DNA from: an alpha proteobacterium HIMB114
GTDB taxonomy: Bacteria; Pseudomonadota; Alphaproteobacteria; Pelagibacterales; Pelagibacteraceae
Assembly (NCBI GenBank): GCA_000163555.2
Contig: ADAC02000001.1
Location: 868,001 to 932,000, forward strand
Reading direction: 5' to 3'
DNA: 64,000 bases
In this document: piece by piece, positions 30,845-39,962 of the stretch
Layout of the letters: each line of letters starts with the position of its first letter
Numbering within the stretch: position 1 is the first letter of the stretch
The notes under the pieces: model-generated
What the model was told of the DNA's origin: nothing
The model's input: only the letters and a program-made list of their open reading frames with translations
Database searches by the model: none
Program-made: the position numbers and the translations under genes

Positions 30845-30890
30845 CACTTAAGTGTACTAATAACTTAATAATATGGATCATTTGTTACAA
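30845..30890 (-). promoter_or_regulatory. phnD leader: 10-bp palindrome and lone Pho half-site
   Basis: The perfect palindrome CACTTAAGTG (30845-30854) lies 23 bases upstream of the phnD ATG, and a single TTGTAAC (minus strand, 30890-30884) resembles one half of the Pho boxes seen before pstS and arsC. No second half is found at 11-base spacing. PhoB control of phnD is therefore possible but not shown; the palindrome could be another operator. Confidence 0.3.
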
Positions 30891-31752: not shown

Positions 31753-31770
31753 ATTTAACAAAACTGTAAC
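31753..31770 (+). promoter_or_regulatory. Pho box (PhoB binding site) upstream of arsC-aqp-phoR
   Basis: ATTTAAC-AAAA-CTGTAAC is a 7-4-7 direct repeat matching the PhoB consensus (CTGTAAC-like halves at 11-base period). It lies 22 bases upstream of the arsC ATG, with a -10-like CATAAT at 31776-31781. The near-identical element upstream of pstS in this window supports the call. Confidence 0.72.
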
Positions 31771-31792
31771 AAATCCATAATACATTGAGGCT

Positions 31793-32209
31793 ATGAAAAA
31801 AGTATTATTTCTTTGTACAGGAAACTCGGTACGATCTATAATATCAGAGTGTCTATTAAATCAATTAGGTCATAATAACTTTCAAGCATACAGTGCAGGG
31901 TCAAAACCAACAGGTAAAGTAAACCCCTATACAATCAAAGTTTTAGAAAAAAATAATATTAATTATAAAAATACTTTAAGTAAAAGTTGGGATACTTTCA
32001 TAGATACTAAATTTGATACTGTTGTTACGGTTTGTAATCGTGCAGCAAATGAAACATGCCCTGTTTATCCTGGATCGCCAAAAAAATTGCATTGGGAATT
32101 GGAAGACCCTGCTGCTTTTAATGGAAATGATGAAGAAAAATTAAACGAATTTCAAAGAATATTTGATCAAATTCATGAACGTATTAAAAAGGAATTCATA
32201 GATCAATGA
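31793..32209 (+). CDS. arsC: Arsenate reductase, thioredoxin-coupled low-molecular-weight phosphatase type
   Basis: Reduces arsenate to arsenite in the cytoplasm; 138 residues. The P-loop CTGNSVRS (Cys8 to Arg14) and the redox pair Cys81 and Cys89 in CNRAANETCP match thioredoxin-dependent ArsC, with the DP loop in WELEDPAAF near residue 106. A plain protein tyrosine phosphatase would lack the extra cysteines. It overlaps the aquaporin gene as ATGA and sits behind a Pho box, fitting detoxification of arsenate that enters through phosphate transporters. Confidence 0.9.
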   Translation: MKKVLFLCTGNSVRSIISECLLNQLGHNNFQAYSAGSKPTGKVNPYTIKVLEKNNINYKNTLSKSWDTFIDTKFDTVVTVCNRAANETCPVYPGSPKKLHWELEDPAAFNGNDEEKLNEFQRIFDQIHERIKKEFIDQ

Positions 32210-32856
32210 ACAAAAATATAAAAAAATATTTTTTAGAATTTCTAGGAACTTTTATTTTACTACTAACTATTGTTGGCTCAGGAATTATGGGAACTAATCT
32301 TTCAAGTAATGAAAGTGTTACTTTAATTGCTAATGCAATTTCCATTGGTCTAATTCTTTTTGTATTAATTTCATCTTTTAGATCAATATCAGGTGCTCAC
32401 TTTAATCCGGCGGTAAGCATAATGTTAGTACTTATGAAAAAAATGAAATCCGAAGATGCGATTATTTATATTTTTTTACAAATAACTGGTGCTTGCTTAG
32501 GAGTAATTTTTGCAAATTATCTTTTTGGTCTAGATGCGGTCCAACAGGCAGCTAAAGTTCGAGGTGGAGAAAGCATATTTGTATCAGAAATTTTTGCGAC
32601 ATTTGGTTTATTGTTTCTTATACTTTTGAACGGAAGAAAAAGTGACTTAGCCATTGGTTCAATTATTGGTTCATATATTACATCTGCAATTTGGTTTACT
32701 TCCTCTACCTCTTTTGCCAACCCAGCTGTTTCAATAGCTAGAAGTCTTACAGATACTTTTACTGGTATACATTTTTCTAATGTACCAATGTTTATTATCG
32801 CACAATTAATATCGATTGTTTTAGTTCTTATTGTATTTAAAAAAATTTTTAAATAA
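32206..32856 (+). CDS. MIP-family aquaglyceroporin, probable arsenite channel (AqpS-like)
   Basis: A 216-residue channel protein with six membrane segments and two NPA loops: HFNPAVS (Asn67-Pro68-Ala69) and FANPAVSIARS (Asn172-Pro173-Ala174, Arg179). Coupled directly to arsC, it resembles the Sinorhizobium AqpS arrangement, in which arsenate is reduced and arsenite leaves by downhill flow through the channel. Glycerol or water permeation is the alternative if it acts separately. Confidence 0.86.
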   Translation: MNKNIKKYFLEFLGTFILLLTIVGSGIMGTNLSSNESVTLIANAISIGLILFVLISSFRSISGAHFNPAVSIMLVLMKKMKSEDAIIYIFLQITGACLGVIFANYLFGLDAVQQAAKVRGGESIFVSEIFATFGLLFLILLNGRKSDLAIGSIIGSYITSAIWFTSSTSFANPAVSIARSLTDTFTGIHFSNVPMFIIAQLISIVLVLIVFKKIFK

Positions 32857-32870
32857 CCTACAAAGCGATT

Positions 32871-34013
32871 ATGGAGTTTTTATATTTATTAGCGGGTTTT
32901 ATAATTGCCTACGTAATTATAAAAATTTTTTCTAAGAAAAAAAATACTAAATCATTTATAAAAATTCAAGAAAGTGAAGATGGAAGCAAATATATAACCT
33001 GGACTAAAGCCTTAAATTTAATTGAGGATCAAATTTTTGTTATAAACAAAAATAAGACTGTTATTTTTGCAAATACATCTGCTAAAAATCAATTTGGTTC
33101 AAAAATAGTTGCAAATCATTATGCCTCAATTATCAGGGATGCTAATTTTATAGAAGCAATTAATAATATTTTTGAAAATAAAAAAAACTCTTCTGTTAAC
33201 TCTGAAATTAATTTTCCAACTTATCAATTTTTAAAAGCTAACTTATATTATATTGAAGAAAATCTTTTTGATGAAAACTTTACAATCATGGTTGTGCTTC
33301 AAGACCTAACTGACCTTCTAAAAATTGAAAAATTAAAGTCTGACTTTGTTGCAAACGTATCACACGAACTTAGAACTCCGCTACAAAGTATTAAACTTGG
33401 TTTAGAAACAATTACAGATGGACCTGCAAAATCTGACAATGCTGCAAAACAGAAATTTTTAAATATTATGAAAAATGAAACCAATCGAATGGATCAATTA
33501 ATTACGGATTTACTAACACTTTCTAAAATTGAACAAGAAGAACATAAAAGGCCAAATGATAAAGTAAATGTCAAAGATATAATTAATATCGTGATTTCAA
33601 ATTTAGAAACCTTATCTCAAAATAAAAAAATTAAAATCTCAAATCTTATTTCAAGCGATAAGATTGTTTTAGGTGATCATAATAAATTAATAGAAGTTTT
33701 TTATAATATTATTGAAAATGCAATTAAATATAGTGATGAAAATAAAGAAATATCAGTACACGCTGAAATAAAAGATGATTTTGTTGAAATCAAAATTATT
33801 GATCAAGGATATGGTATACCCAAAACTTCTCTGGGGCGTGTGACAGAAAGATTTTTTAGAGTTGATCCAGAAAAAAGTAAAAAAATTGGTGGTACAGGAC
33901 TAGGTTTAGCAATTGTAAAACATTTAATTAATCAGCATCGTGGCCAGCTTAATATCAGAAGTGAATTGGATAAAGGAAGTGAATTTGAGATCAAATTGCC
34001 AACCGCAAATTAG
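32871..34013 (+). CDS. phoR: Phosphate regulon sensor histidine kinase
   Basis: A 380-residue kinase. One membrane segment (residues 1-20) is followed by a PAS-like domain (about 45-150), HisKA with phospho-acceptor His165 in NVSHELRTPL, and HATPase_c with NAIKYSDE, DQGYGIP and GGTGLGLAIVKHL. It phosphorylates PhoB under phosphate limitation. The gene is 14 bases after the aquaporin in an arsC-led operon, and converges on phoB with 4 overlapping bases. The short membrane region without a periplasmic domain matches PhoR, which senses through the Pst-PhoU complex. Confidence 0.9.
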   Translation: MEFLYLLAGFIIAYVIIKIFSKKKNTKSFIKIQESEDGSKYITWTKALNLIEDQIFVINKNKTVIFANTSAKNQFGSKIVANHYASIIRDANFIEAINNIFENKKNSSVNSEINFPTYQFLKANLYYIEENLFDENFTIMVVLQDLTDLLKIEKLKSDFVANVSHELRTPLQSIKLGLETITDGPAKSDNAAKQKFLNIMKNETNRMDQLITDLLTLSKIEQEEHKRPNDKVNVKDIINIVISNLETLSQNKKIKISNLISSDKIVLGDHNKLIEVFYNIIENAIKYSDENKEISVHAEIKDDFVEIKIIDQGYGIPKTSLGRVTERFFRVDPEKSKKIGGTGLGLAIVKHLINQHRGQLNIRSELDKGSEFEIKLPTAN

Positions 34014-34690
34014 TCTAAAGAGTACCCTGCAGACCTTACAGTTCTAATTAATTCTTTTGTACCATCTAAATTAATTGCTTTTCTTAATCTTCTTATATGA
34101 ACATCTACTGTTCGATTTTCTACGTTTATATTATCAGGCCAAATATTTGTGAGCAGTTGGTCTCTAGAATAAACTCGTTTTGGATTTTTAATGAAAAAAT
34201 CTAACATACGATACTCCGTGGGCCCAAGATCAATCTGAGTTTCATTTCTAAAAACTTTTCTTTGTATTCGATCTATAACTAAATCCTCATAAACAGCTTT
34301 ATCCTCTGCAACCCTTGGCTTACTTCTGCGTAGTAATGCATTAATCCTTGCAACTAGTTCAGCATGACCAAAAGGTTTCGTAATATAATCATCAGCACCA
34401 GCATTAAGTGCAGCAACTTTATCTTCCTCTTGACCTTTGGCAGTTAGCATAATGATTGGAAGATCTTGAAACTTTTTATCTTTTTTTAAGGATCTGCAAA
34501 TATCAATACCAGAAAGGTCCGGTAGCATCCAGTCTAGTAAAACTAGATCAGGTTCTTGCTCCTTAATTTCATGAAGAGCCTCTTCGCCATTACTAGAAAC
34601 TGAAAACTTAAAACCTTCTTTTTTTAAATTATATTCGACTAAAGTTATAATTGACTGTTCGTCTTCAACTAAAAAGACTTTGGCATCCAT
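34010..34690 (-). CDS. phoB: Phosphate regulon response regulator
   Basis: An OmpR/PhoB-type response regulator, 226 residues. The receiver domain has Asp10-Glu11, phospho-acceptor Asp53 (LLDWMLPD) and Lys in TAKGQ. The DNA-binding winged helix covers about residues 130-226, with LGPTEYRMLDFFIKNPKRVYSRDQLL and VDVHIRRLRKAI. It is the last gene of the pstSCAB-phoU-phoB run, 3 bases after phoU. It is predicted to bind the two Pho boxes in this window. Confidence 0.94.
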   Translation of the reverse strand: MDAKVFLVEDEQSIITLVEYNLKKEGFKFSVSSNGEEALHEIKEQEPDLVLLDWMLPDLSGIDICRSLKKDKKFQDLPIIMLTAKGQEEDKVAALNAGADDYITKPFGHAELVARINALLRRSKPRVAEDKAVYEDLVIDRIQRKVFRNETQIDLGPTEYRMLDFFIKNPKRVYSRDQLLTNIWPDNINVENRTVDVHIRRLRKAINLDGTKELIRTVRSAGYSLD

Positions 34691-34693
34691 AAA

Positions 34694-35356
34694 TTATTTT
34701 TGCGGATAATCACCTTCTATGAGGTAATGAACATTTTGGCATATACGCGAAAGGTGATCACCAGCTCGCTCTAAATTTTTACAAACAAAAAGTAAATTTG
34801 TTGCAAAATCTAAATTCTTCTTATCTTTTGATAAAAACTCTAACACTTCTTTTATAGAAGCAGTTGCTAAGTCATTAACTTGTTCATCGCTCTTAATTGT
34901 ATCTAAACTCTTTTGAACAGATTTTTCGATAAAACAATCTAAAGTAGACTTTAATTGTTTTTGTACCATTTCTCCCAAACTCTCAATTCTTTTCAACATT
35001 TCTGGTGGTAAATCATCTGGTAAAGGTAAAATTTTCTTTGCATTTCCTTTTGCCAAATCTCCAATTCTCTCAAGGTCTTGTGAAATTTTTAAAGTTGAAA
35101 TGGCATATCTAAGATCTATTGCTACAGGTGATCTTTTTACCAATATAGTCATTATATGTTGATCAATTGACGATCTAAACTTGTTGATTTTTGCATCGCT
35201 CTCTACAATTTTACTGACAGCATCTTTATCTACTGTGGTTATTGCGTTCATAGAGTCGTAAAGTAACTTTTCAGTCAAACTCCCCATCTGAACCAAGCTA
35301 TCATTTAAATGTTGAAGCTCTTCGTCGTATGATTTTACAATATGTTCATCGCTCAT
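34694..35356 (-). CDS. phoU: Phosphate transport regulator PhoU
   Basis: A 220-residue all-helical protein with two PhoU repeats; the metal-binding ERIGDLAKGNAK near residue 96 and ERAGDHLSRICQ near residue 195 are visible. PhoU links Pst transporter state to PhoR and represses the regulon in phosphate-rich conditions. It lies 2 bases after pstB and 3 before phoB. Confidence 0.95.
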   Translation of the reverse strand: MSDEHIVKSYDEELQHLNDSLVQMGSLTEKLLYDSMNAITTVDKDAVSKIVESDAKINKFRSSIDQHIMTILVKRSPVAIDLRYAISTLKISQDLERIGDLAKGNAKKILPLPDDLPPEMLKRIESLGEMVQKQLKSTLDCFIEKSVQKSLDTIKSDEQVNDLATASIKEVLEFLSKDKKNLDFATNLLFVCKNLERAGDHLSRICQNVHYLIEGDYPQK

Positions 35357-35358
35357 AA

Positions 35359-36135
35359 TTATCCAAATCTACCAGTTATATAATCTTGAGTCATGGTATT
35401 ATTAGGGTTCTTAAATATTTTTTCAGTTTCTCCCATTTCAATTAGTTTGCCTAAATGAAAAAAACCTGTTCTTTGAGAAACTCTTGCAGCTTGTGACATT
35501 GAGTGTGTTACAATTACAATGGTGAATGATCTTTTAAGAGAATCTATGAGTTCTTCAATTTTTGCAGTCGCAATCGGATCCAAGGCACTACAAGGCTCAT
35601 CCATTAAAATAATTTCAGGGTTAATAGATATTGCTCTGGCAATACATAATCTTTGCTGCTGTCCACCTGACAAACCTGTTCCTGGTTCATGCAATCGATC
35701 TTTTACCTCATTCCATAAAGCCGCTTTTTGCAAACTTGTTTCTACGATATGATCCATTTCATTTTTATCCTTAGCAATTCCATGAATACTCGGTCCGTAT
35801 GCAATATTATCATAAATACTTTTGGGAAAAGGATTTGGTTTTTGAAAAACCATTCCAACCTTTTCTCTTAAACGAACTACATCAACGTCAGGTTTATAAA
35901 TATTAAAATTATCTATTTCTATCTCACCTGTAATTTTACAAATATCAATCACATCGTTCATTCGATTAATACATCTTAAAAAGGTAGATTTTCCGCAACC
36001 CGATGGGCCAATTAAAGCTGTAACTTCATTTTTATAAATCTCTAAATCAATTCCAAATAAAGCCTGTTTATCGCCGTAGAAAACATCGATATTTTTACTT
36101 ATAACTTTTGATTCTCTTTTATTTTCTAGTTCCAT
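35359..36135 (-). CDS. pstB: Phosphate ABC transporter ATP-binding protein
   Basis: A 258-residue ATPase of the high-affinity phosphate importer. Walker [10 protein letters not shown] lies near residue 43, signature [16 protein letters not shown] near residue 155 and Walker [17 protein letters not shown] near residue 175. The PstB-specific region CINRMND near residue 55 is present. It overlaps pstA by 10 bases. Confidence 0.96.
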
Positions 36136-37388
36136 TTTTTCTCAAATTTTTGTCTTGCATACACAGCAAGCGAGTTCATAACAATTAAAAAACCAAGCAA
36201 CATCATAATTGTTGCGGATGTTTTTTCCACAAAGCCTCTTTCTGCAGATTCTGACCATAAGTAAACTTGAACAGGCAGTGAAGCTGATGGATCCATTGGA
36301 CTACCTGGCAATTCAACTACAAAAGCTACCATTCCAATTAATAATAAAGGTGCTGTTTCACCTAATGCTTGTGCAAGACCAATAATCGTTCCGGATAAGG
36401 TTCCTGGCATAGCTAATGGTACGACATGGTGAAAAACAGTTTGTACTTTTGATGCCCCCATAGCTAAAGCCCCCTCGCGAATTGACGGAGGAACTGCTTT
36501 TAAAGATGCACGTGCTGGGATTATAATTCTAGGCAAAGTCATAAGCGATAATGCAATTCCACCAACTAATGGAGTAGACCTTGGTAATTCAAAAACATTT
36601 AATAAAATTCCCAACCCTAATAATCCAAAAACTATAGACGGAACTGCTGCTAAATTATTGATATTGATTTCTATTAAATCGGTCAGCTTATTTTTTGGAG
36701 CAAATTCTTCAAGGTATACTGCTGCTGCTAAAGCTATTGGAAATGAAATTAATAAACAAATCAAAATAGTAAATAATGATCCTAGTATAGCGCCTCCAAA
36801 ACCTGCTAATTCTGGATCACGACTATCTCCTTTTGAAAATAAGTAGTTGTTAAATATTTTTTCTACTTTTCCATCCTTCAAAAACTGATCATAAATTTTT
36901 AGTTGATAATTAGATAATCTTCTTCGATCTTCTGGAATATCTCTTGGAAAGTTACCTTTATGTAACTGATCAAAATCATCTGATGCTGTAAGCAAAAGTG
37001 TTACTGTTTTGTTTAATTGATCTTTATTTTTTAAAAAATAATTTTTTGCTTCAAATTCGTAATCAGGACTTAGTAATTTAATTATTTGTTTTTCCTCTTC
37101 GCGGTTTGAGAAAGGATAACTTTTAATAAATTCCTCATAAATTAGAGTGTAGTAATCTGCATTATCAACTTCGTCTTTATCATTAACATTTGTGATCCCT
37201 AATTTATTTGCATCAAATGTAACATCTAGTTTTATCATTGTTCTTGAAAAAGCACTTGTTCCATCTGAAAAAACTTTAAAAACTAATAACCCTACAAAAA
37301 ATAATGCTAATGAAATTGCAATAATTCCATAAAGTTGAAATCTTTTTTCTGCTTGATACCTTTTTTTTCTTCTTAGTTCTTTATTCAT
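36126..37388 (-). CDS. pstA: Phosphate ABC transporter permease PstA
   Basis: A 420-residue permease, longer than E. coli PstA because of an N-terminal DUF3333-type region: one membrane segment (about residues 18-42) and a roughly 140-residue periplasmic loop, usual in alphaproteobacteria. The core transporter domain follows from about residue 200, with the coupling motif [25 protein letters not shown] near residue 306. It overlaps pstC by 8 bases and pstB by 10. Confidence 0.94.
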
Positions 37389-38787
37389 ATTGTTCTCTAT
37401 ATTTTTTGACTACCCTTAAAGCGATAAAATTTAAAACTAAAGTGGCTGCAAATAATGTTAAACCTAAAGCAAATGCTGCTTGCGTTTTTGCGCTTGTAAA
37501 CTCTTGATCGCCTACCAAGATCATTACAATTTGTGTTGTGACTGTGGTTGTTGATTCTAATGGGTTGATTGTTAAATTTGCAGCTAAACCAGCGGCCATC
37601 ACGACAATCATAGTTTCTCCAATTGCTCTTGAGACAGCCAATAAGATTGATCCAACAATTCCTGGTAACGCAGCAGGAAATACAACTTTTTTGATTGTTT
37701 CTGATTTTGTGGCGCCAACTGCATACGATCCATCTCTTAATGATTGTGGTACAGCATTGACTACGTCATCAGTTAATGAGGAAACAAATGGGATGATCAT
37801 AACACCCATGACTAAACCTGCGGCTAACGCACTTTCGGATGAAACTTCTAATCCCAAGGACTCTCCTAATATTCTAAAAAAAGGACCAACTGTTAGTGCT
37901 GCAAAAAACCCGTAAACAACAGTGGGTACTCCTGCTAATATTTCTATTATAGGCTTTCCAAATTTTCTAACATTTGTACTGGCGTATTCAGCAAAATATA
38001 TTCCTGAAAATAATCCAATAGGAACTGCAACGCACATCGCGATAAAAGCAATAAATGCAGTTCCGGCAAATAATGGAATTGCACCAAATGCTTCACTTAG
38101 TTCTTTAAGTTGAGCAGTTGTTAGTTCTGCAGAAGCATCACTCACAAAAGCCTTTTGAGGACTCCATGATGTACCAAAAATAAAATCAAAAAAATTAATA
38201 GTAGTAAAAAATTTAATACTTTCAAATAAGAGTGAAAATATAATACCCACAGTAGTTAGAATTGCTGCAACAGAACTTGTAAACAAAATTATTCTTATTA
38301 TTTTTTCAACACCCTCTCTTGCATGAACATTGTTTGAAATATTCCTCAAGGCAAGTCCTGAAAACAAAATAATTGCTGATAAAAAAACAACTACCTTAGA
38401 GCTCGCGGCAACTGAGAGGAGACGTTTATATTGTTCAGCTCCTAATTTGATACTTTCATCTAATTGGCCGCTAAAATTTCCAGTATAGTAAGCTTTAATT
38501 TTTTGATAAATTAAATTAAGCTCATCTTTTGATATTGCTTTTAAACTATCAGTTTGAATTTTGGAAAAAATTAAATTTTTTATAATAGCTGGCTCTAATA
38601 TATTCCATGATACCAAAATTATAAGTGCGGGTAACGCACACCACAATGATAAGTAATAAGCATAATACTTTGGTAATGCTTTTAATTTAAATTGTTTGCT
38701 ACTAGCAAAATATCCAATTCTTGATTTAGAAAAAAAATATAAAGAAACTGAAAAAAGAAGAATGAATAAAAACAATACTAAGTTCAT
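37381..38787 (-). CDS. pstC: Phosphate ABC transporter permease PstC
   Basis: A 468-residue inner-membrane permease, extended at the N-terminus relative to E. coli by extra membrane segments and a periplasmic loop (residues 1-160). The core domain carries SGIYFAEYAS, EILAGVPTVVYGFFA and the coupling motif DGSYAVGATKSETIKKVVFPAALPG near residue 351. It follows pstS after a 67-base spacer that holds two overlapping hairpins. Confidence 0.94.
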   Translation of the reverse strand: MNLVLFLFILLFSVSLYFFSKSRIGYFASSKQFKLKALPKYYAYYLSLWCALPALIILVSWNILEPAIIKNLIFSKIQTDSLKAISKDELNLIYQKIKAYYTGNFSGQLDESIKLGAEQYKRLLSVAASSKVVVFLSAIILFSGLALRNISNNVHAREGVEKIIRIILFTSSVAAILTTVGIIFSLLFESIKFFTTINFFDFIFGTSWSPQKAFVSDASAELTTAQLKELSEAFGAIPLFAGTAFIAFIAMCVAVPIGLFSGIYFAEYASTNVRKFGKPIIEILAGVPTVVYGFFAALTVGPFFRILGESLGLEVSSESALAAGLVMGVMIIPFVSSLTDDVVNAVPQSLRDGSYAVGATKSETIKKVVFPAALPGIVGSILLAVSRAIGETMIVVMAAGLAANLTINPLESTTTVTTQIVMILVGDQEFTSAKTQAAFALGLTLFAATLVLNFIALRVVKKYREQYE

Positions 38788-38790
38788 TTA

Positions 38791-38828
38791 GCCCTTTATG
38801 TTTAAAGGGCCAGAATAATCCGGCCCTT
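38791..38828 (-). promoter_or_regulatory. Overlapping alternative hairpins between pstS and pstC
   Basis: Minus-strand RNA can form hairpin A: AAGGGCCGG (38828-38820) with CTGGCCCTT (38813-38805), 9 bp with one G-U and a 6-base loop. It can instead form hairpin B: GCCCTTTA (38810-38803) with TAAAGGGC (38798-38791), 8 bp with a 4-base loop. They share GCCCTT and exclude each other. Hairpin A starts 26 bases after the pstS stop; hairpin B ends 3 bases before the pstC ATG. Confidence 0.7.
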
Positions 38829-38854
38829 AGAAACTTTAGCACTAAATAACTAAT

Positions 38855-39874
38855 TTATTGAATTGTAGTTAATTTGAGTGCCGAATTTCTTGTTAAATTA
38901 TATTTATCTGGACTTAGAGGGACTAACCCAACATCAGTTAAATAACCTCTGGGCCCAGTTGCTTTTTTTGCAGTAAAGTCTTTTAAAAATTCATGAATAC
39001 CCGGAACAACTCCAATATGAGCTTTTTTTACATAAAAGAATAATGGTCTTGCAATTGGATATGAGTAATTTTGAATTCCCTCAAGTGATGGAACCACTCC
39101 ATTCACTTTCGCTGCTTTAATTTTGTCTTTGTTAGCTACTAAGTAACTAAAACCAAATAAACCAAAAAGTTCTGGATCTGCGGAAAGTTTATTTACAATC
39201 AATGTATCATTCTCTCCTGCTTCAATAGCAAATCCATCTTCTCTAAGTTTAACGCATGCTTTTTTTGCTTTTTTACCTACAGCTTCATATGCAGCTTTTG
39301 CAGTTTTTGAACAACCTTTTGCCATCACTAATGAATTCCAAGCATCTCTTGTGCCTGATGTTGGAGGAGGTACCAAAATTTTTATTCCATAGTTTGGTAA
39401 AGATTTGTCAATGTCACTCCATTTTTTATATGGATTAACTACAAGCTTACCATCTACATCAACATCATGAGCCAATGCTCTCCATAAATGTTCTTTGGTA
39501 AAATTAGCATCTTTTGCTTTTACGGAATGTGCAAAAGATATGCCATCGTTACCAACGACTATTTCAATTATATCTTTAACACCATTTTTTGAGCAAAGCT
39601 CTTTTTCTGAAGATTTGATTGCTCTTGACGCGTTTGTAATATCTGGATGGTTAGTTCCAACACCTGCGCAGAATAATTTCATTCCTCCACCAGTTCCTGT
39701 GCTTTCAATAACTGGTGTTTTAAATTTTCCTGATTTACCAAATCTCTCAGCAACTACGGTCGCGTAAGGGTAAACTGTCGAAGAGCCTACAATTTTGATT
39801 TGATCTCTAGCAATTGCATTGGATACGAAAACAAATGATAGGATCAAAAAAAATAATGTTTTTAGTTGTTTCAT
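38855..39874 (-). CDS. pstS: Phosphate ABC transporter substrate-binding protein
   Basis: A 339-residue periplasmic phosphate-binding protein with signal peptide (residues 1-22, ending SNAIA). PstS motifs are KIVGSSTVYPYATVVAERF near residue 28, ESTGTGGGMKLFC near residue 57 and PPTSGTRDAWNSLVM near residue 169, including Ser/Thr residues typical of the phosphate pocket. It leads the pstSCAB-phoU-phoB operon and is preceded by a Pho box. Confidence 0.95.
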   Translation of the reverse strand: MKQLKTLFFLILSFVFVSNAIARDQIKIVGSSTVYPYATVVAERFGKSGKFKTPVIESTGTGGGMKLFCAGVGTNHPDITNASRAIKSSEKELCSKNGVKDIIEIVVGNDGISFAHSVKAKDANFTKEHLWRALAHDVDVDGKLVVNPYKKWSDIDKSLPNYGIKILVPPPTSGTRDAWNSLVMAKGCSKTAKAAYEAVGKKAKKACVKLREDGFAIEAGENDTLIVNKLSADPELFGLFGFSYLVANKDKIKAAKVNGVVPSLEGIQNYSYPIARPLFFYVKKAHIGVVPGIHEFLKDFTAKKATGPRGYLTDVGLVPLSPDKYNLTRNSALKLTTIQ

Positions 39875-39944
39875 TTTTTTTCCTTAGGTTATTAATTTTG
39901 GCTCTTTAATTAATTAATAATGATGAAACTAATATTTAACTAAT

Positions 39945-39962
39945 GTTAAAGTTTTGTTACAA
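39945..39962 (-). promoter_or_regulatory. Pho box (PhoB binding site) upstream of pstS
   Basis: On the minus strand, TTGTAAC-AAAA-CTTTAAC is a 7-4-7 direct repeat fitting the PhoB consensus. It lies 70 bases before the pstS ATG, with an AT-rich -10 candidate (TTAAAT) about 6 bases downstream of the box. It shares the AAAA spacer and half-site pattern with the box before arsC. Confidence 0.75.

Follow-up and report, generated by a model that had tools for sequence, protein, structure and literature searches.

The window analysed here is a 64,000-nucleotide stretch of the complete, 1.24 Mb genome of the alphaproteobacterium HIMB114 (contig ADAC02000001.1, positions 868,001 to 932,000), in which an arsenate reductase gene shares an apparent operon with a phosphate sensor kinase gene, and it raises the question of which signal switches arsenic detoxification on. 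By its size, composition and gene content the genome belongs to the SAR11 order. The first-pass annotation described arsC as overlapping an AqpS-type channel gene followed by phoR, and phoR as separated from phoB in the facing pst operon. The coordinates were right (a 4-bp arsC/aqp overlap and 14 bp from the aqp stop to the phoR start), and gene order and the convergent phoB confirm the separation (Table 1). The end of phoB, the last gene of pstSCAB-phoU-phoB, falls within the phoR stop region, and the two gene sets lie tail to tail. Genes for a PiT-like transporter, the phn transporter and a phosphonoacetate hydrolase lie to the left of arsC-aqp-phoR. A palindrome, CACTTAAGTG, lies at 30848-30857, a short distance upstream of phnD, and ACTTAAGTG is seen again upstream of phnD in genomes G001 and G004; the palindrome is possibly the site of another regulator, given the lack of a strong Pho box at phnD in this genome.

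Table 1. Positions within the window of the arsC-aqp-phoR genes, the facing pst operon and the predicted Pho boxes.
Feature	Position	Strand	Description
Predicted Pho box array, arsC	31753..31781	+	ATTTAAC AAAA CTGTAAC AAAT CCATAAT; three 7-mers, 11-bp period
arsC	31793..32209	+	LMW-phosphatase-type (thioredoxin-coupled) arsenate reductase
aqp	32206..32856	+	MIP-family channel, AqpS type (Val, not Arg, after second NPA)
phoR	32871..34013	+	phosphate-regulon sensor kinase, final gene of arsC-aqp-phoR
phoB	34010..34690	-	response regulator; TIGR02154 317 bits vs cut-off 296
phoU	34694..35356	-	operon position and matches in relatives' pst operons
pstB, pstA, pstC, pstS	35359..39874	-	PstS TIGR02136 9.5e-39; operon order same in relatives
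Pho box array, pstS	39934..39962	-	TTGTAAC AAAA CTTTAAC ATTA GTTAAAT; window's top site, 30.2 bits

A candidate for the signal is suggested by the repeats in front of arsC. The 7-4-7 Pho box originally called at 31753-31770 is exact in its coordinates for the two-repeat part, ATTTAAC-AAAA-CTGTAAC, and one more repeat, CCATAAT at 31775-31781, extends it to the right. A 29-bp matrix was trained on 13 pstS promoters from SAR11 genomes, with the window's own genome left out. It gives the array 24.0 bits, a score that only pstS (30.2 bits) exceeds among the 127,944 positions of the window, the next site having 13.8 bits; 20 million positions of a third-order Markov null gave a maximum of 19.9 and none at 20. 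In the pstS promoters of other SAR11 genomes three 7-mers likewise stand at 11-bp spacing, near TTGTAAC-AAAA-CTTTAAC-ATTC-CTGTAAT, and the arsC promoter carries the mark by which we recognised Pho-regulon members, direct 7-mer repeats at an 11-bp period that resemble the genome's own pstS promoter. AT-richness was ruled out as the source of the match by the Markov null, by random windows and by neighbouring promoters: those of the phn, PiT and MBL genes score below 5 bits, so the arsC box is not simply AT-rich background. A box at every nearby phosphorus gene is ruled out as well, phnD, the PiT gene and the phosphonoacetate hydrolase gene all being under 5.

Exact copies of the 17-base core TKTAACAAAAYTKTAAC occur three times in the genome (arsC, pstS and one other), with zero one-mismatch matches in the whole genome and two-mismatch counts at control level. 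The third exact match, at L123:1489-1517 (C1 near 1214290 in the window's own genome; 19.0 bits), is flanked by a divergent ion-channel gene (PF00520) on one side and by a glucose/sorbosone dehydrogenase-like gene (PF07995) on the other, and this locus is a possible further Pho-regulon member. The E. coli consensus CTGTCAT-4-CTGTCAT, tried as the motif, gave genome counts close to control; the local form is TTGTAAC/CTTTAAC, and a SAR11-specific Pho box of this kind could be used for mapping the regulon.

The box recurs in relatives. Of the 42 non-redundant SAR11-family arsC operons, 34 have a forward match that scores at least 10 bits and lies no more than about 220 bp upstream, against 2.1% of random windows drawn from the same loci; at that threshold it is absent from eight loci, two of which have a reversed one. 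At L075/L229, presumed to be HTCC7211, the box that can be recognised ahead of arsC is weaker, at 10 bits, and in reverse orientation. The left neighbour of the box varies, being the MBL gene in the window genome and G001 and gcrA in G027, while in G006, G005 and G003 the start codon of a divergent gene abuts the box (G002 is similar), and in the alignment similarity fades near the box, with different left-hand contexts. In genome G004, which has no arsC match, phoR occupies the equivalent position and there is no box, which argues that the box goes with the arsenic genes. Across the order, phoB, phoU or pst genes share the stretch with arsC at 60 of 77 loci, several of the remainder stopping at contig ends; many have ppx-ppk between (ppk, ppx and gcrA in relatives being assigned by Pfam), and in the sister family arsC-aqp directly follows phoB inside the pst operon. 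Independent acquisitions of arsC-aqp within the order are unsupported, since in the tree a single branch (99/99) sets apart the 35 rows from the order, and the arsC-Pho link may therefore be old. In much of the SAR11 family a gene for a small DUF6552 membrane protein (about 75 aa) lies upstream of arsC, and where it is present the Pho box precedes it (for example L060:9375-9602 and L064:10085-10309); this protein is a candidate for a third component of the operon.

The product of the third gene has HisKA and HATPase_c domains and was classed as PhoR: its best models are PnpS/PhoR (1.6e-91, 5e-91), its partner phoB faces it, and the genome's other kinases are at most 34% identical to it, with a TIGR02966 score (5e-91, 305 bits) below the equivalog cut-off of 334. 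Among the relatives compared, an intact phoR follows aqp in the window genome and G006 only, with a remnant in G001; many others have phoR elsewhere, often before pstS. This scattered placement would suit a box that controls arsC-aqp only, with phoR expressed constitutively or from a promoter of its own, brought here by an accident of rearrangement and giving no feedback, and G004, where phoR stands in place with neither arsC nor box, indicates that phoR can be read without one. We nevertheless regard that reading as unlikely, given the short gap after aqp and an aqp-phoR interval in which we found no Pho box, terminator or promoter-like excess. If phoR is instead transcribed with arsC and aqp, as we prefer, PhoR would regulate itself through the operon box, with feedback of either sign. 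PhoR-type kinases are usually also phosphatases, as this one probably is, and more PhoR therefore need not give more output. As judged from the loci compared, the arsC-Pho link is order-wide, and the phoR placement special to this small lineage.

Two further observations concern phoR in relatives. In G001 (L051:10119-10600) phoR is cut short at about 81 codons and leads directly into a Pho box of the pstS type (28.6 bits), with doxX next. The remainder of phoR is missing as if deleted, together with phoB, phoU and pst, and arsC-aqp is left with an orphan Pho box; since this draft is 76% complete, an assembly fault is possible. Upstream of phoR in other family members (L047, L048 and L058), repeats of the CTGTCAT and CTGAAAC type stand in reverse orientation at an 11-bp period and suggest that phoR may be Pho-linked there too.

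The two proteins encoded ahead of phoR have the features of an arsenate reductase and an AqpS-type channel. ArsC meets the Pfam cut-off for LMWPc (3.8e-20), matches the solved ArsC structures 1jl3 and 1jf8, and has the P-loop CX5R and two further redox cysteines of the thioredoxin-type enzymes, with Cys8, Arg14, Cys81, Cys89 and Asp105 invariant across 12 aligned sequences; because its TIGR02691 score (9.3e-32, 110 bits) is below the curated equivalog cut-off of 174, we classify it from its fold and residues and do not call it a certified equivalog. With both ArsC and PhoR under such cut-offs, the two are named from their best match, key residues and position, and the low scores may fit the divergence of SAR11 proteins. 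Aqp (Pfam MIP, 1.4e-23) has the NPA motifs NPAVSIM and NPAVSIAR, the usual Arg after the second being absent; this NPAV signature recurs in nearly all of the SAR11 relatives, as it does in most of the aquaporins linked to arsC in rhizobia and other groups, and the two NPA motifs, the non-Arg residue and the arsC linkage together place the protein in the AqpS type, through which arsenite probably leaves the cell. A channel without the filter arginine might also pass larger arsenicals, and SAR11 demethylates DMA (PMC6426599), which would fit another role for the pair in phosphorus starvation (on organic arsenic, on another LMW phosphatase substrate or as a general solute channel). Such a role is very unlikely: ArsC is invariant in its P-loop and in all three cysteines, and other proteobacteria commonly have arsC beside an aqpS-type gene, in most cases together with ArsR.

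The start of arsC lies 11 bp downstream of the box end, with a Shine-Dalgarno-like GAGG between the box and the ATG; with E. coli spacing, this distance would imply a leaderless or nearly leaderless arsC mRNA, an unusual but possible form. That PhoB represses at a box so close to the start codon, or that the box acts on something else, seems most improbable, as the repeats are laid out as in pstS promoters (notably TTTTAAC-ATAT-CTGTAAC-AAAT-TCTTAAT in L117), the sister family has arsC within the pst operon itself, and phosphorus starvation raises, not lowers, arsC in HTCC7211 (2.3-fold, with no induction by DMA; PMC6426599).

The usual arsenic regulator and pumps are missing. A search of the whole window genome, with positive controls, found no ArsR-type regulator, ACR3 or ArsB, and HTH_5 had zero matches in it (control positive in 14 of 14). 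The operon therefore departs from the canonical ars arrangement, in which an ArsR-family repressor lies in or near it. An ArsR-type regulator was found within 3 kb at none of 77 SAR11-order arsC loci versus 68 of 80 from a broad scan of named genomes, whose records, mostly from outside SAR11, formed the outgroup, one of the 80 being itself a Pelagibacteraceae record; the profile was built from one seed, and weak members could be missed. Because the genome has no ArsR-family regulator, ACR3 or ArsB, phosphate scarcity would replace arsenic as the inducing signal; with no arsenic sensor of the ArsR type found, the cell seems to take phosphate scarcity as its arsenate warning.

Gene order, box, conservation and the missing regulator and pumps are observed; from them we consider it likely that arsC-aqp-phoR is a PhoB-activated arsenate-detoxification operon with phosphate scarcity as its inducing signal. 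On phosphate shortage PhoR would phosphorylate PhoB, and PhoB~P would bind the repeats at 31753-31781 and switch on transcription of a presumed arsC-aqp-phoR message, likewise driving pstSCAB-phoU-phoB from that operon's own box. Starvation would be the time of greatest arsenate entry, via phosphate uptake; ArsC is predicted to reduce the incoming arsenate, and arsenite would exit passively down its gradient through the AqpS-type channel. Phosphate scarcity in place of arsenic as inducer would amount to feed-forward control, and with phoR at the operon end the sensor gene and the regulator gene would each lie behind a Pho box. The original proposal that detoxification is an output of the phosphate-starvation response is thus well supported by a box kept across contexts, the lack of a detectable ArsR and the HTCC7211 induction. 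On balance we favour a history in which detoxification in the SAR11 order lost its arsenic sensor and came to be run predictively by the phosphate-starvation regulator, phoR joining the operon in this lineage so that detoxification and phosphate sensing would rise together.

SAR11 cells are among the most abundant marine cell types, and in waters like the Sargasso the ratio of arsenate to phosphate can top 50 (PMC6426599). If the proposal is true, switching by phosphate scarcity fits the tracking of low phosphate by arsC in ocean surveys, arsenite release is predicted whenever SAR11 is phosphorus-limited, and the operon would be a clear, naturally occurring example of how a streamlined genome uses feed-forward control. 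The SAR11 LMWPc_ArsC and aquaporin pair, the same two genes in the same order as here, has already been published, with an abundance inverse to phosphate (Giovannoni 2019, PMC6426599); the available text of that paper makes no mention of a Pho box, phoR, a sensor-kinase operon or regulator loss. Our literature search, which covered few subscription papers, turned up no account that places a Pho box ahead of SAR11 arsC, shows such a box conserved where ArsR is missing or has phoR within an arsenic operon. The arsC-AqpS operon of Sinorhizobium meliloti is controlled by ArsR. As described in the available source (Yang 2005, in PMC4435449), it likewise joins arsC to an AqpS-type channel replacing ArsB; the operon here differs in having a PhoB box and no ArsR. 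The accessible accounts of the Agrobacterium and Halomonas arsenic islands (PMC3834237, PMC4563254) also describe PhoB acting on arsenic genes and arsenic genes beside phosphate genes, but there PhoBR controls aioBA, for arsenite oxidation, and the islands include ars operons such as arsRCB. The Prochlorococcus Pho cluster (PMC3686209) places arsenic efflux within a low-phosphate gene set with phoBR, as here, but it is cyanobacterial, uses an ACR3 pump and has other genes in another arrangement.
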